Below, in pieces: positions 18,220 to 26,313 of a stretch of DNA of 64,000 bases. A program made the translations under genes and the position numbers. This stretch comes from Blastococcus sp. PRF04-17 (GTDB lineage: Bacteria > Actinomycetota > Actinomycetes > Mycobacteriales > Geodermatophilaceae): assembly GCF_023016265.1 (NCBI RefSeq), contig NZ_CP095412.1:4154001-4218000 (forward strand). Reading direction: 5' to 3'. The notes under the pieces are model-generated. The model made no database searches, was not told the DNA's origin, and was given only the letters and a program-made list of their open reading frames with translations. Position 1 is the stretch's first letter; every line of letters starts with the position of its first letter.

Positions 18220-20865
18220 CTACTCGTGCAGGAACCAGACGGTGCCGAGCGGGGGAGCGGCGATGGTGGCGGAGAAGGGCTGGCCGTGCCAGGGCTCCTC
18301 GACGGCGTGGATGCCGCCGAAGTTGCCGACGCCCGAACCGCCGTAGCCCTCGGCGTCGGTGTTGAGCACCTCACGCCAGTGGCCGCCCCGTGGCAGCCCG
18401 ATGCGATAGCCCTCGTGCGGCGAGCCCGAGAAGTTGGTCACGCACGCCAGCGCCGTCCCGCTGCCGCCCTCGTCCGGCCCCTTCGGACCGCGGCCGTAGC
18501 GGAGGAAGGAGAGCACGTTGCCCGACGCGTCGTTGGCGTCGATCCACTGGAAGCCGGAGGGGTCGATGTCCAGGCTCCACAGGGCGTCCACCTCCCGGTA
18601 GCGGCCGTTGAGGTCGGTGACCAGCTGCAGGATGCCGCGGTGCGCGGGGTCCTCCAGGTGCCACCAGTCCAGCGAGCGGCTCTCCGCCCACTCGGAGTCC
18701 TGGGCGAACTCCGACCCCATGAACAGCAGCTGCTTGCCCGGGTGCGCCCACATGTAGGCGAGGTACGCGCGCAGGTTGGCCAGCTGCTGCCACCGGTCGC
18801 CCGGCATCTTCCGCAGCATCGAGCCCTTGCCGTAGACGACCTCGTCGTGGCTGATCGGCAGGACGTAGTTCTCGGAGTAGGCGTAGATCATCGAGAACGT
18901 CAGCTGTCCGTGGTGGTAGCTGCGGTGCACGGGCTGCTTGCTCATGTACTGCAGCGAGTCGTGCATCCAGCCCATGTTCCACTTGAAGCCGAACCCGAGG
19001 CCGCCCAGGTGCGTGGGGCGGGTGACCCCCGGCCAGGCGGTCGACTCCTCGGCGATGGTGACCACACCGGGGACCTCCCGGTACACCGTCGCGTTCATCT
19101 CCTGCAGGAACGCCACCGCCTCGAGGTTCTCCCGGCCACCGTGGACGTTGGGCACCCACTCCTCGCGGGAGTAGTCGAGGTAGAGCATCGAGGCGACCGC
19201 GTCGACGCGGATGCCGTCGATGTGGAACTCCTTGGCCCAATACAGGGCATTGGCGACGAGGAAGTTGCGCACCTCGGAACGGCCGAAGTCGAAGACGTAC
19301 GTGCCCCAGTCCAGCTGCTCCCCGCGGCGGGGGTCGGCGTGCTCGTAGAGCGGCGTGCCGTCGAAACGGGCCAGCGCCCAGTCGTCCTTCGGGAAGTGCG
19401 CCGGCACCCAGTCGACGATGACGCCGATGCCGGCCTGGTGCGCCCTGTCGATCAGGTACCGCAGGTCATCGGGGCTGCCGTAGCGGGAAGAGGGGGCGTA
19501 GTAGGAGGTGACCTGGTAGCCCCAGGACCCGCCGAACGGGTGCTCGGCCAGCGGCATGAACTCGATGTGGGTGAAGCCGGCCGCGACGACGTAGTCGACG
19601 AGCTCGTCGGCCAGCTGCCGGTAGGACAGCCCCTGCCGCCACGAACCGACGTGCACCTCGTAGATGCTCATCGGCCGCTCGTGCCAGCCGCCCTGGGCCC
19701 GCTCGGCGAGCCACGCGTCGTCGGTCCACTCGTAGGTCGACTCGGTGACGACCGAGGCGTTGAGGGGCGGCACCTCGGTGGCGAAGGCGAGCGGGTCGGA
19801 CTTCTCCCGCCAGGTCCCGTCGGCGCCGAGCACGTGGTAGCGGTACCGGCTGCCGACCTGCACGTCCGGGATGAAGATCTCCCAGACGCCGGACGACCCC
19901 AGCGACCGCATCGGGTACGCGCGGGCCTGCCAGTAGTCGAAGTCGCCGGTGACCTTGACGCCACGGGCGTTGGGCGCCCAGACGGCGAACGAGACGCCCT
20001 CGACCGAGCCGCGCGGGGTGTCGTAGCGCCGCACGTGCGCGCCGAGCACCTCCCACAGCTGCTCGTGCCGGCCCTCGCGGATGAGGTGCTGGTCGAGCTC
20101 GCCGAGGGTGGGCAGCCACCGGTAGGGGTCGTCGACGGTGTAGGTGCTGGTGCCGCCCTCGCCGTCGCCGTAGGCCACCTCGATCCGGTAGTCCCCCGGC
20201 TGCTGGGGCAGCTGCGCCTCGTAGATGCCCCCGCCGTGCAGCTGCCGCGCCGGGTAGCGGGTGCCGTCCTCGTCGACGACGGCGACGGACACCGCGTCGG
20301 GCCGGAGGGTCCGCACCACCCAGCCGGCGCCGGTGTGGTGGGTCCCGAGCACGGAGTGCGGATCGTGCGACCACCCCTCGACGACGGCGCGCAGCTGGTC
20401 ACCGCTGACCTCGCGTGCCTCGGCGGAGGGCGTCGAGTGGCCGGTCTCCTCGGCGCCGGGCCCAGGCGCCGGTGCACCCGTGCCGTCGCCCGGCTCGGCG
20501 ATCGGGGCCGGTGCGACCACGGGGTCGGCGGTGACCGGGTTGTGCTCGGTGCCGGGCGTGGGGGTGGCCTTCCTGGCGGCGGCCCGCTTGGCCGGTGACG
20601 TGACCGGGGCCGCCTTCTTGGCCGCCTTCTTGGCCGGCGTCGCCTTCTTCGCGGGCGCCGCCTTCTTCGCGGGCGCCGCCTTCTTCGCGGGCGCCGCCTT
20701 CTTCGCGGGGGCCTTCTTCGCGGCCGACCGCGCGCGCGCCGGCTCGGCGTTCACGATCGGCTCGGCACCGGCGGCCGCCTCGGCCGCCGCCACCTTCTCC
20801 TCCACGGCGCGCGTGAGCTCGTCCTTGTCGGGGACGCGCTCCTCGCCTCGGTCGTCGGTGCTCAT
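18220..20865 (-). CDS. glgB: 1,4-alpha-glucan branching enzyme with Lys/Ala-rich N-terminal tail
   Basis: This 881-residue GH13 branching enzyme transfers alpha-1,4 segments to alpha-1,6 positions in glycogen. Residues from about 150 onward hold the N-terminal beta domain and CBM48. The catalytic barrel has [20 protein letters not shown], the nucleophile in [18 protein letters not shown], the acid in [13 protein letters not shown] and the third acid in [13 protein letters not shown]. The enzyme ends TVWFLHE. What is odd is the first 145 residues: an acidic stretch, then a basic repeat of AAPAKK units (residues 48-100) resembling bacterial histone-H1-like tails, then an acidic/Pro-rich linker. 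It is the last gene of the leftward glgE-treS-mak-glgB group. The ATG at 20865 includes the tail, and there is no break in frame. Confidence 0.95.
20566..20724. repeat. 18-bp coding repeat for AAPAKK units in glgB
   Basis: On the plus strand the unit GCGGGCGCCGCCTTCTTC recurs in tandem, encoding Lys-Lys-Ala-Ala-Pro-Ala on the reverse strand. The Lys/Ala-rich segment covers GlgB residues 48-100, with degenerate copies at its end. Copy number could vary by slippage. Confidence 0.85.
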
Positions 20866-20905
20866 CGTGTCGCCGTCCTCTGGGGTGCCTTGTGCGTGGT
20901 CTGGC

Positions 20906-22272
20906 TCAGTCGCGCCCGGCGAGCCGGGCGAGGGAGTTCAGCGGGATCATCAGCCAGTGCGGACGATTGCGTGCCTCGTAGACGCACTCGTAAACCGCCT
21001 TGTCCGCTTCGAACGCCCGGAGGAGTGGTGATTCACCACACGGGTCGAGACCGCTGGCCTCGGAGTACCCCGTGCAGAAGGCCGCCCGGTTGCGGGCCGC
21101 CCACTCCTGGGCGCGGTAGGCGCGCTGGGCGTCGTCCGGCTGCTCCACGAGCATGTGCCGCGCCGCGTAGTCGAAGCTGCGCAGCATGCCGGCCACGTCC
21201 CGGAGGGGACTGTCCAGCGTCCGCCGCTCGCTGAGCGGGCGCGCCGGTTCGCCCTCGAAGTCGAGCAGGATCCAGCCGGTGGCCGTGCGCAGCACCTGAC
21301 CGAGGTGCAGGTCGCCGTGCACCCGCTGGCGGACGACGGGCTCGCGGCTGTCGGCGACCGCGGCGTAGAGCCGCCGCAGACCCTCGGCGTGTTCGGCGAG
21401 CTGGGGCACGACCTCCGTCGCGGCGGTCAGCCGCTCGGTCATCTGCGTGGCGACGGCCGCGTACCAGTCCTCGCCGGCCGGTTCCGTCGGGAGGACCTTG
21501 GCCATGTCGGCGTGCACCGAGGCGGTCGCCGCGCCGAGCCGCTCGCTGTCGGCGGCGAAGTCGCCGCCGACCTCGTCGGCGTGCAGGTCGCCCTCGGCGT
21601 AGAGGTCCCGGACGCTCGCCGTGGCCAGCCGCCAGCCGTCGCTGGCGTTGGGCACGAAGGTCTGCAGCATCGCGACGGTCGCGGGCTCGCCGCCGGCCGG
21701 GTCGTCGATCTCGATGTGGCCCAGCAGGGGGCGATGTGCTCGTTGTCGGCGCTGCGCAGCGCCGCGTGGATCTCCACGTCCGGGTTCAGCCCCGGCTCGA
21801 GCCGGCGGAAGAGCTTGAGGATCGCCTCCTGGCCGTAGATCAGCGACGTGTTGCTCTGCTCGCCGGAGACGACGTCCCCCGGCAGCCCTTCGGGGATGTA
21901 GGCCACGCCGGCCGGGTGGAAGTGCATGGGCCCGATGGTCGAGGCGTTGACGAGGTGGATCAGCCAGGGCGGCGTCGCGTCGCGGTCGCGCATCGCGTCG
22001 TAGGCGTAGGTCTCCTTGCCGTCGTTGGCCACGGCCCCGACCAGCGCGCTGGACAGCTCGTCGGCCGGGTGGTCCCGCCACGACAGGGGCACCAGGTAGG
22101 TCTCCCTGACGCCGTCGGCGTAGGTGACGCGCACCCGGTGGACCGACAGCACGGGGTGTGCCCGGTCGAGCAGGAAGCCGTCCTCGGTGACCTCGGCCCA
22201 CTCCCTGCCCTTGCCGCCGAACCACCGCTGGTGCGGCATCCACTCCGCGAAGAGGTCGGTCAGTGCCGTCAT
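20906..22272 (-). CDS. mak: Maltokinase (one frame break)
   Basis: This enzyme (also called Pep2) phosphorylates maltose with ATP to maltose 1-phosphate for GlgE. Repaired length is about 455 residues, typical of the family. The N-terminal maltokinase cap has [18 protein letters not shown]. The kinase core shows [16 protein letters not shown], with catalytic HGDLHLGQ, and [18 protein letters not shown], with the metal-binding Asp. The frame breaks in a run of five C (G on plus, 21727-21731); one more base restores [18 protein letters not shown]. The ATG at 22272 overlaps the treS stop by four bases, so translation is likely coupled. Confidence 0.93.
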
Positions 22273-24092
22273 GCCTGGCTCCCCTCGGTGCCACCCGACG
22301 TCTCCTCGGCGGCGCTCACCACGCCCGCGGCGAGCAGGGTGTCGGCGACCGAGCTGGAGGTGGCCGCTTCCCAGTCCTCGTGCTCGTCGACGGTGGCCTC
22401 GGGTGCCGGCTTGGCCAGCTCGAACCAGTAGAAGCCGTGTCCGGCCAGCGTGAGCATGTAGGGCAGGACGCCGATCCGCGGGAACTCCACCCGCCCGGTC
22501 AGCTCGATGGGCGTGTAGCCCTCGAACCGGCGCAGGTCGAGTTCCACCGGCTGCGGGAACCGGGACAGGTTGTTCACGCAGAGGACGACGTCGTCGCCGA
22601 ACTCGCGCACGAACGAGAGCACGGTCGGGTTGCGTGACCCGATCTCGGCGAAGGTCCCGAGCCCGAACGTGGGGTGCTCGTTGCGGACCTGGATCATCCG
22701 GCGGATCCAGTGCAGCAGCGACGTGGTGTTGCGCAGCTGGGACTCGACGTTGGTGACCTGGTAGCCGTATACCGGGTCCTGGTTCAACGGCAGGTACATG
22801 CGCTGGGGGTCGGCGGTGGAGAACCCGCCGTTGCGGTCCGGCGTCCACTGCATGGGCGTGCGGACGCCGTCGCGGTCACCGAGCCAGATGTTGTCGCCCA
22901 TGCCGATCTCGTCCCCGTAGTAGAGGACCGGCGACCCGGGCAGCGAGAACAGCAGCGCGTTGAACAGCTCGAGGGTGTTGACGTCGTTGTCGAGCAGCGG
23001 GGCCAGCCGCCGGCGGATGCCGATGTTGGCCTTCATGCGGGGGTCCTTGGCGTACTCCGCCCACATGTAGTCGCGTTCCTCGTCGGTGACCATCTCGAGG
23101 GTGAGCTCGTCGTGGTTGCGGAGGAAGACGCCCCACTGGCAGTTGTCGGGGATGTCCGGCGTCTGCGCCATGATCTCCGAGATCGGGAAGCGCTGCTCCC
23201 GGCGCACGGCCATGAACAGGCGCGGCATGACGGGGAAGTGGAAGGCCATCTGGCACTCGTCGCCGTTCTCGCCGAAGTACTCGACGACGTCGGCCGGCCA
23301 CTGGTTCGCCTCGCACAGCAGTACCCGGTCCGGGTACTCGGCGTCGACGACCTTGCGCACCTGCTTGAGGAACTCGTGGGTGCGCGGGAGGTTCTCGCAG
23401 TTGGTCCCCTCCTCCTCGAACAGGTAGGGGACGGCGTCGAGCCGGAACCCGTCGATGCCGAGGTCCAGCCAGAAGCGCAGCGCGTCGAGGATCGCCTCCT
23501 GGACGGCCGGGTTCTCGAAGTTGAGGTCGGGCTGGTGGCTGAAGAACCGGTGCCAGAAGTACTGCTTGCGCACCGGGTCGAACGTCCAGTTCGAGGTCTC
23601 GGTGTCGACGAAGATGATCCGGGCGTCGGCGTACCGGGTGTCGTCGTCGGACCACACGTAGAAGTCGCCGTACGGGCCGTCGGGATCGCTGCGGCTGGCC
23701 TGGAACCAGGGGTGCTGGTCCGAGGTGTGGTTCATGACGAAGTCGATGATCACGCGCATGCCGCGGGAGTGAGCGGCGTCGAGGAAGTCGTGGAAGTCCT
23801 GGATGTCGCCGAACTCGGGCAGGACGGCGGTGTAGTCGGACACGTCGTACCCGCCGTCGCGGAGGGGCGAGGCGAAGAACGGTGGCAGCCACAGGCAGTC
23901 GACGCCGAGCCACTGCAGGTAGTCCAGCTTGTCGATCATGCCGCGCAGGTCGCCCACGCCGTCGGCGTTGCTGTCGGCGAAGCCGCGCACGAGGACCTCG
24001 TAGAAGACGGCGCGCTTGTACCACTCGGGGTCGGTGCCGGGCGGCGGCAGTGCCGAGTTGCTGCTGGGGAAGTCGGGGACGGGAACGCTCAT
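22269..24092 (-). CDS. treS: Trehalose synthase / maltose alpha-D-glucosyltransferase
   Basis: This 607-residue GH13 enzyme interconverts trehalose and maltose. It shows [20 protein letters not shown], the nucleophile region in [20 protein letters not shown], the acid in [19 protein letters not shown] and the third acid in [13 protein letters not shown]. The small C-terminal domain has [18 protein letters not shown]. No maltokinase domain is fused; Mak is the next gene and overlaps by ATGA. With GlgE upstream, the order matches the GlgE pathway operon, where TreS supplies maltose for Mak and GlgE. Confidence 0.95.
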
Positions 24093-24146: not shown

Positions 24147-26156
24147 TCAGACGACCGGTGGCGGAAAGGTCACCGGTCGCTGGAAGGTGACCGCGAAGAC
24201 GTGCGCGGGTTCCCGGTAGGGGTCCAGCTCCAGGTAGTTGAACTGGCCCCAGTCGTAGTGCGCGCCGGAGAGCTCGTCGGTGACCCCGAACCGCTCGTGC
24301 CAGTCCAGTCCGAGCACCGGGAGGTCGAGCGCCGTCGTCCCGATCTGGGTGTGGTGGCTGGACAGGTTGACGACCACGATCACGGCGTCGGCTGAACCGG
24401 GGTCGGTCTTCGAGAAGCAGATCAGGTTCGGGTTGTCGACCGGGTGGAAGTGCAGCGTCCGTAGCTGCTGCAGCGCCGGGTGGGCCCGGCGGATCTCGTT
24501 GAGCCGCGTCAGGTACGGCGCGAGGCTCCGCCCGGAGGCCTCCGCGGCGGCCCAGTCGCGCGGCCGCAGCTGGTACTTCTCGCTGTCGAGGTACTCCTCG
24601 CTGCCCGGCTTGACCGCGACGTGCTCGAACAGCTCGAAGCCCGAGTACACGCCCCACGTCGGGCTCATCATCGAGGCGAGGACCGCCCGGATCTTGAACA
24701 TCGGCGGGCCGCCGAACTGGAGCGACTCGTGGAGGATGTCCGGGGTGTTGACGAAGAAGTTCGGCCGCATGTAGTGGCTGTTGGCGGCCAGCTCGCGGCC
24801 GTAGTCCTCGAGCTCTCCGCGCTCGGTCCGCCAGGTGAAGTACGTGTACGACTGCGTGTACCCCAGCCGCGCCAGCTGGTGCATCATCGCCGGCCGCGTG
24901 AAGGCCTCGGCGAGGAACAGCACGTCCGGGTCGGTCTTCTTGACCTCCCAGATCAGCCAGTGCCAGAAGTTCAGCGGCTTGGTGTGCGGGTTGTCGACGC
25001 GGAAGATGCGCACACCCGCGTCGATCCAGACCCTGAGCACCCGCAGGCACTCGGCGTAGATGCCCTCGGGGTCGTTGTCGAAGTTGATCGGGTAGATGTC
25101 CTGGTACTTCTTCGGCGGGTTCTCCGCGTACGCGATCGTGCCGTCGGGCTTGGTGGTGAACCACTCCGGGTGCTCCTTGACCCACGGGTGGTCCGGCGCG
25201 GCCTGCAGCGCGAAGTCCAGCGCCACCTCCATGCCCAGCTCACGGGTCCGCGCGACGAACGCCCTGAAGTCGTCCATCGTGCCCAGCTGCGGGTGGACGG
25301 CGTCGTGCCCGCCCTCGTCGCTGCCGATCGCCCAGGGTGAGCCGACGTCGTCCGGGTCCGGGGTCAGCGTGTTGTTGCGGCCCTTGCGGTTCACCTTGCC
25401 GATCGGGTGGATCGGCGGCAGGTAGACGACGTCGAAGCCCATGTCGGCGACCGCCGGCAGCCGCTCCTGCGCGGTGGCGAACGTGCCGTGCGTCGGGGTG
25501 CCGCCCACGACCGGCCCGGTCGAGCGCGGGAAGAACTCGTACCACGAGCCGTAGAGGGCCCGGGGGCGGTCGACCCACACCTCGTACCGCGGCGAGCGGG
25601 TGATCAGCTCGCGCACGGGGTGCTGGTGCAGGTACTCCTGCAGCGACGCCGAGAAGGAGGGCGCGATGCGAGCGGTCAGTTCGAGGTCGGTGCTCCGGAG
25701 CGCGGCAGCGGCCGCGGTGACCGCGTCGCGGTGCTGGTCGTCGGCCTCGGCGGCGACCCGGTCGAGCAGCCGGGCGCCCTCCTCGAGGTCGTTGGCCAGC
25801 TCCTCCGGGCCCTGCCCGGCCGCGACCTTGACGTCGACGGCGTGGTGCCACGTCGCCAGCGGGTCGCTCCACGCCTCGATGCAGAAGGACCAGCGGCCCT
25901 CCCGGTCCGGCACGACGGTGGCCAGCCAGCGGTCGGGCTCCTGCCCGAACTTCGCCATTCGGCGGAGAGGGGGAGTGCCGTCCTCGCCGGGCGGTTGCCA
26001 GACGACGTTCGCCGCGACGGCGTCGTGGCCCTCGCGGAAGACGGTCGCGGTGATGGGCACGTGCTCACCGACGACGGCGCGGGCCGAGAAGGACCCGCAC
26101 GACACGACGGGGGCGACATCGGAGATGCCGAGGCGGAGGTCAGGGCGGCCAGTCAT
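24147..26156 (-). CDS. glgE: Alpha-1,4-glucan:maltose-1-phosphate maltosyltransferase
   Basis: This GH13_3 enzyme extends alpha-1,4-glucan with maltosyl units from maltose 1-phosphate. It has 669 residues from the ATG at 26156, where [20 protein letters not shown] matches the family's beginning; an ATG at 26258 would add 34 Pro/Arg-rich residues. The catalytic region has DLEL and an N-terminal helical bundle (about residues 130-220), then [18 protein letters not shown], the nucleophile in [17 protein letters not shown], the acid in [15 protein letters not shown] and the Asp in [14 protein letters not shown]. It heads the leftward operon and diverges from glgP, so synthesis and breakdown genes share a promoter region. 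Confidence 0.95.
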
Positions 26157-26313
26157 CGCGGCCACGCTATCGAGGTCGCCGCTGGCCAGCACGTCGGCGG
26201 ATGTCCGCCGACCGCCGCGGGGAGGGACGGGCGGGATCGGGGAACGCTTGGGGGCCATGGGGCTGCTGACTCCATCTGTTTCCGCGGGGCCGCTGCGCTC
26301 GGCGGTGTGCGGT

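Follow-up and report, generated by a model that had tools for sequence, protein, structure and literature searches.

The GlgB protein (1,4-alpha-glucan branching enzyme) of the soil actinobacterium Blastococcus sp. PRF04-17 carries approximately 145 additional N-terminal residues ahead of its enzyme domains, in the middle of which lies a strongly basic lysine/alanine/proline block. Its gene, glgB, is found in a stretch of 64,000 nucleotides (contig NZ_CP095412.1, positions 4,154,001 to 4,218,000; ‘the window’ in what follows). Comparison of the locus across the family Geodermatophilaceae indicates that the extension genuinely belongs to GlgB and is under selection, and that the block within it was gained once, retained for a long time and lost in a single genus. 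The role of the block is a more tentative matter, for which we discuss a tether to DNA alongside several alternatives.

The N-terminal extension of GlgB

The glgB open reading frame runs in a single frame from ATG to stop with no internal stop codon. Its product exceeds both equivalog cut-offs (981 bits against NCBIfam NF003811, cut-off 741; 922 bits against TIGR01515, cut-off 464), and with the GlgB_N, CBM48, GH13 and C-terminal domains all present the protein is, by these profile matches, a true GlgB. A preliminary description of the window had reported an enzyme core that was intact and in frame, preceded by 145 extra residues; the former agrees with the domain assignments and the latter is correct to within a few residues.

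The extension consists of an acidic N-terminal module (residues 1–45, net charge −6), the basic block (residues 46–100, net +19) and an acidic, alanine- and proline-containing linker (residues 101–145; counted over residues 101–150, this region is proline-rich with a net charge of −7). The block comprises 16 lysines, 3 arginines, 24 alanines and 7 prolines, with no aspartate or glutamate. At the lysine frequency of the enzyme core (1.36%), the binomial probability of 16 or more lysines in 55 residues is 2.4e-17, a calculation that ignores low complexity. The preliminary description had placed an AAPAKK-type repeat with acidic flanks at residues 48–100, within a few residues of these boundaries. 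By column conservation, the best-conserved stretch of the extension is a short linker motif (residues 115–126) together with the proline-rich sequence that follows it; the motif may be a spacer or a docking motif. In searches of the same genome, the linker motif had no other significant match (best other E 0.1) and the acidic N-terminal module no convincing second copy (best other match E 0.59). As judged by family models, GlgB belongs neither to the HU nor to the H1-like proteins: a Pfam scan found no HU domain (PF00216), and the H1-like model NF038053 gave 20.9 bits against a cut-off of 80, with the match restricted to residues 20–113.

Distribution, translation and history of the lysine block

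GlgB is present in 110 of 112 Geodermatophilaceae genomes, and we read the upstream regions of 110 glgB loci in 109 genomes, leaving out three fragments without an N-terminus (G097, G066:C95 and G098:C366); at one locus (L238) the N-terminal region was not located. We defined a lysine-rich block as at least 7 lysines in a 50-residue window, and the crown of the family as genera g1–g4 and g8–g12 (101 loci, of which 100 are readable because one, L237, is cut by a contig end). The block is present in 91 of these 100 loci, with 8–16 lysines per 50 residues, and in eight of the nine crown genera, three of which (g4, g10 and g12) are represented by one genome each. The nine loci lacking it, with at most 2 lysines per 50-residue window, comprise every locus of genus g8. 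None of the 8 readable loci (of 9) from the basal genera g5–g7 has a lysine-rich block.

A wider sample, consisting of the best 80 of at least 594 named GlgB loci, contained 8 loci from the Geodermatophilaceae and 72 from other families; the block was found in all of the former, and an AAPAKK-type tail in none of the latter. The suggestion that such a tail is no usual part of GlgB thus stands outside the family, for this sample, and falls within it, where the block is the rule. The preliminary description had also named absence of the tail from all close relatives as a refutation; the search of homologues instead located the block in 91 of 100 readable crown loci. Two GlgB proteins, from Nocardiopsis algeriensis (L063; GKSTA repeats, 6 lysines) and from an actinobacterial metagenome-assembled genome (L061; KAGK-type, 8 lysines in 50 residues), have different lysine-rich N-termini, unrelated to the AAPAKK tail and possibly convergent. 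Among open-access papers, judged by titles and abstract openings, we found none relevant to a lysine-rich tail on GlgB.

Another possibility is that the start was assigned incorrectly, the enzyme beginning near residue 145 and its tail never being made; the preliminary description had named such a finding as one that would count against the tail being part of the protein. We found no point in its support. There is no ATG, GTG or TTG codon between codons 117 and 171 of glgB, and the ribosome-binding site ahead of codon 1 is common to many relatives. The sequence GAGGACGG precedes the chosen glgB start in 25 of 45 crown loci, distributed as 12 of 14 in g1, 3 of 7 in g2, 8 of 8 in g3 and the single loci of g4 and g12, with none in g8 (0 of 8), g9 (0 of 4), g10 (0 of 1) or g11 (0 of 1); most crown loci without it have a related, GGA-rich site. 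Recurrence of the site is supporting rather than independent evidence, as the rule used to pick starts itself seeks such a site.

The extension also evolves as a protein. Across 16 pairs of relatives, the ratio of nonsynonymous to synonymous substitution rates (dN/dS; Nei-Gojobori method, our own script) ranges from 0.15 to 0.45 in the extension (0.23 to 0.45 when only the 12 block-bearing pairs are counted) and from 0.07 to 0.26 in the GlgB core, and in each pair the extension changes more quickly than the core; within repeats the measure is biased low, because alignment sets similar residues against each other. On this codon-level evidence the extension is under purifying selection as a protein, though a looser one than the enzyme core. 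The extension dN/dS, the absence of a start codon at codons 117–171 and the shared ribosome site together point to translation from codon 1; we therefore reject a mis-annotated start, consider a GlgB start near residue 145 very unlikely on sequence grounds, and assign negligible probability to a tail that is never made.

On a midpoint-rooted tree built from 59 core proteins, the tail states require 2 changes, as compared to a mean of 20.1 for shuffled states: a gain on the branch leading to the crown (support 100/100) and a loss in g8 (8 rows, support 100/99). The neighbors of g8 in the tree are g4 (98/97) and then g9 (92/95), both with lysine tails. The distribution fits one gain, long retention and one clean loss. 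In g8, GlgB still has a recognizable acidic module at its N-terminus as well as the linker motif, and what normally lies between them is missing. The proline-rich sequence after the motif, PAP[IV]A[EQ]PG, is found in 87 of 100 crown loci, including 9 of 9 in g8. Conversely, there are loci that bear the lysine block without the linker motif, namely those of g4, g10 and g12 and some of those in g1 and g3; as each occurs without the other, the block and the motif are separable in both directions. All 8 of the g8 Ku proteins tested keep their own Lys/Ala/Pro tail (the ninth g8 genome, G081, was outside that search), which indicates that the loss is particular to GlgB and excludes a genome-wide switching-off of lysine tails in that genus.

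Possible roles of the block

We tentatively favor a reading in which the GlgB tail is a tether to a polyanion, most likely DNA, that holds glycogen on the nucleoid, while granting it somewhat less than an even chance. In its anatomy GlgB resembles a granule tether of the PAKKA type, which is a functional class and not one sequence family. Assumed from its composition to be disordered, the block would act as a histone-H1-like polycation and would bind a large polyanion, most likely chromosomal DNA, in a manner not specific for sequence. The preliminary description had suggested glycogen granules, nucleic acid, polyphosphate or acidic partners as possible targets of the tail; since the enzyme core already handles glucan, a polyanion appears to be the likelier partner. 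The CBM48 and GH13 domains are the candidate polymer-binding part of the protein, and by means of CBM48 and the catalytic glucan-binding sites GlgB would sit on the growing glycogen particle. Each tailed molecule could thereby link glycogen to the nucleoid, with one hand on the sugar and the other on the polyanion, and glycogen particles would be dispersed along the chromosome, kept from merging and divided between daughter cells. The acidic flanks would serve as spacers and as competing counter-charge, making the grip weak and salt-sensitive.

A need to position glycogen is suggested by E. coli, in which, according to one report (PMC12706056), glycogen phase-separates, collects at the old pole and renders nucleoid position and division asymmetric. 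One could go further and propose that the crown Geodermatophilaceae evolved GlgB, on a single occasion, into a glycogen-positioning factor whose tail wets glycogen onto the nucleoid and prevents polar condensation of the E. coli kind, with g8 as a natural tail-less mutant having nucleoid-free glycogen; this larger proposal we regard as rather doubtful. If a tether to DNA were correct, GlgB would be an enzyme that both builds a polymer and brings with it the means of tying that polymer to DNA, a trait that most of the family has retained and a single genus has cleanly lost, and the placement of bacterial glycogen would become a directly testable question.

Other proteins of the same genome bear on the choice of partner. 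A codon-pattern scan gave 27 matches, as opposed to 0 for the reversed pattern; one match (L121) is not of the Lys/Ala/Pro tail kind. Besides GlgB, scans identified Lys/Ala/Pro segments on Ku, a WS/DGAT protein, a lipid-droplet protein, CheA, a CoxG-like protein and a DoxX-like protein, and three further bearers we take to be TopA (or a TopA-like protein) and the ribosomal proteins L4 and S16. Four of these nine are nucleic acid binders (Ku and, presuming those three assignments, TopA, L4 and S16) and two are lipid-storage proteins. Ku, which binds DNA, has a similar tail in this genome and in relatives. Taken together, the tailed proteins lean toward DNA as the partner of the tail; that only four of nine bind nucleic acid led us to lower our estimate for a tether and to raise that for drift (discussed below). 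Lysine-rich tails are known on the HU proteins of mycobacteria and streptomycetes; the one HU match in this genome (L269, 2975.5 kb) is without one.

Several points weigh against a tether to DNA. DNA binding and glycogen localization by the tail are predictions, drawn by analogy with other systems. The tail is N-terminal in GlgB and C-terminal in the known granule tethers, although a C-terminal position is probably not a functional requirement. Genus g8 has lost the block at 9 of 9 loci yet keeps GlgB and both flanks, and so the block is not essential there. CheA and the CoxG-like and DoxX-like proteins have tails without an obvious DNA role or polyanion partner. Finally, as far as sequence comparison can tell, there is no general tethering rule for storage proteins in this genome: we considered a tail rule shared by all of them and rejected it, as the WS/DGAT and lipid-droplet tails are not conserved in relatives.

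Those two proteins also served as controls for near-neutral drift of low-complexity sequence, by which an alanine/proline linker would gain lysine codons through 18-bp slippage and be kept as a flexible spacer. The near-perfect 18-bp tandem copies in this glgB, the varying length of the extension among relatives, its faster evolution than the core in all pairs and the disappearance of the block from g8 all speak for such a process, as do the comparable blocks that come and go in the linkers of the two control proteins. The Rv1109c-like lipid-droplet protein is found in 111 of 112 genomes, and of the 30 loci read (from a set of 50) one shows a PAKKA-type segment in the linker; apart from this genome, four g1 loci among the best ten have 9–13 lysines there and no PAKKA-type unit. 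Two or more KK pairs are found in the WS/DGAT tails of 5 of 22 readable loci (the sample being the 30 best-matching loci, from g1 and g2 only, of which 22 had true tails and 8 were dropped). Blocks of this kind evidently arise and vanish in these genomes; that of GlgB stays, g8 apart, and all 91 readable crown loci of the other genera retain it. The ratio of lysine to arginine over the whole extensions of the 91 block-bearing loci is 1393:745 (1.9), versus 488:2183 (0.22) in 45 crown GlgB cores. (We preferred these counts to the 1049:246 obtained from windows selected for high lysine, which is biased; one of the 91 rows, L213, is clipped by the start rule and contributes zero lysines to the sums, and its open frame has a lysine-rich block.) By these counts lysine is kept over arginine in the extension, in GC-rich genomes whose cores favor arginine. 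Along with an extension dN/dS well below 1, in a measure that leans low in repeats, these observations make drift an unlikely explanation.

The preference for lysine also bears on the possibility that the +19 block acts within GlgB itself, pairing with the strongly acidic core (residues 151–881, net −36) and the flanks so as to govern how GlgB dissolves, oligomerizes or condenses with glycogen, without a further polyanion. The opposite charges of core and flanks are as such a role would have them, and the flanks accompany the block in most crown loci. However, plain charge balance needs no preference for lysine over arginine, and the flanks remain in g8 after loss of the block, so that the charges are not a co-dependent pair; we view an internal role as improbable. 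A tail that binds polyphosphate (polyP), or mixtures of polyP and DNA, would instead couple the glycogen and polyP stores. It has a precedent in AlgP, a protein with a similar tail that sits on polyP granules and whose localization is reported to need polyP kinases (PMC9239181). No sequence feature separates polyP from DNA as a partner, and we consider polyP binding less probable still.

Gene neighborhood and comparison with known systems

The features described above and the neighboring genes are collected in the following table.

Features of the glgB region, in positions of the window
Feature	Position	Strand	Remarks
glgB, 1,4-alpha-glucan branching enzyme with N-terminal extension	18220..20865	-	881 aa, ATG start
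GAGG of the glgB ribosome-binding site	20877..20880	-	GAGGACGGCGACACG-ATG
Acidic N-terminal module, residues 1–45	20731..20865	-	ELQRAVEEK.A.AEAAA..EP.VNA type, net −6
Lys/Ala/Pro (AAPAKK) block, residues 46–100	20566..20730	-	net +19
18-bp tandem repeat	20621..20723	.	5.9 copies, 92% matches, coding for AAPAKK units
Acidic Pro/Ala linker, residues 101–145	20431..20565	-	
Conserved short linker motif, residues 115–126	20488..20523	-	retained even at loci that lack the Lys block
GlgB_N domain, residues 156–248	20122..20400	-	Pfam
CBM48, residues 274–360	19786..20046	-	Pfam
Catalytic (GH13) and C-terminal domains	18220..19785	-	Pfam
treS, upstream neighbor of glgB	22269..24092	-	TIGR02456, 965 bits vs cut-off 678
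glgE, upstream neighbor of glgB	24147..26258	-	PF11896, PF21702

The gene lies in a run of glgE, treS, a maltokinase gene and glgB, and from what is known of the GlgE pathway GlgB is probably the branching enzyme of that route. The maltokinase gene, which separates treS from glgB, is spread over two overlapping frames (20906–22294 and 21439–22848, minus strand), one matching the Mak N-terminal cap and the other its C-terminal half, and the switch falls near 21.72 kb; either the gene is a pseudogene or the sequence contains an indel error. The assembly is a single contig with a stated completeness of 95.89%. At L119 (approximately 3770.7 kb of the same genome), which we take to encode ribosomal protein L4, the conserved core and the Lys/Ala/Pro tail are encoded in separate frames, and that of the core continues into L23 by way of an arginine-rich stretch, possibly reflecting another indel. 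The two tailed lipid-storage proteins of the genome are the WS/DGAT protein (L086:13-1644, at 1395.6 kb; TIGR02946, 418 bits), whose Lys/Ala/Pro tail is C-terminal and varies in relatives, and the Rv1109c-like lipid-droplet protein (L087:865-2067, at 2246.4 kb; NF033649), whose PAKKA block is central and, among the 30 loci read, confined to this genome.

Ordinary actinobacterial GlgB proteins share the enzyme domains of the Blastococcus protein and differ in their N-terminus, with no AAPAKK-type tail in 72 of 72 loci from outside the family (again among the best 80 of at least 594). Lysine-repeat tails similar to that of GlgB are found on Streptomyces TopA and mycobacterial HupB, where they are described as raising DNA affinity or the stability of the complex (PMC5676037); these proteins act on DNA, and GlgB does not.

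Tethers for storage inclusions have already been described for polyhydroxybutyrate (PHB), polyP and lipid stores. A term search of the main text of a 2025 review on the positioning of bacterial organelles (PMC13052382) did not find the word ‘glycogen’. The same source describes PhaM and PhaF, which use histone-like domains to anchor PHB granules to the nucleoid, the granules being spread along it. As GlgB would do, these combine a storage-granule protein with a histone-like part; their N-terminal end binds the granule and their C-terminal end DNA, unlike the N-terminal tail of GlgB, in which a Pfam scan found no phasin-type domain. AlgP of Pseudomonas aeruginosa likewise has an H1-like repeat tail, of the KPAA type, that is reported to be required for the spacing of polyP granules (PMC9239181); it differs from GlgB in its store, in the C-terminal position of the tail and in apparently not being a polymer-building enzyme. 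MLDS of Rhodococcus jostii is an actinobacterial storage-inclusion protein, as GlgB is proposed to be, and likewise has PAKKA-type Lys/Ala/Pro repeats; truncation is reported to show that it binds DNA to lipid droplets through these motifs (PMC5504291). The MLDS tail is C-terminal and belongs to a lipid-droplet protein, whereas that of GlgB is N-terminal, is carried by the branching enzyme itself and concerns a store of glycogen.
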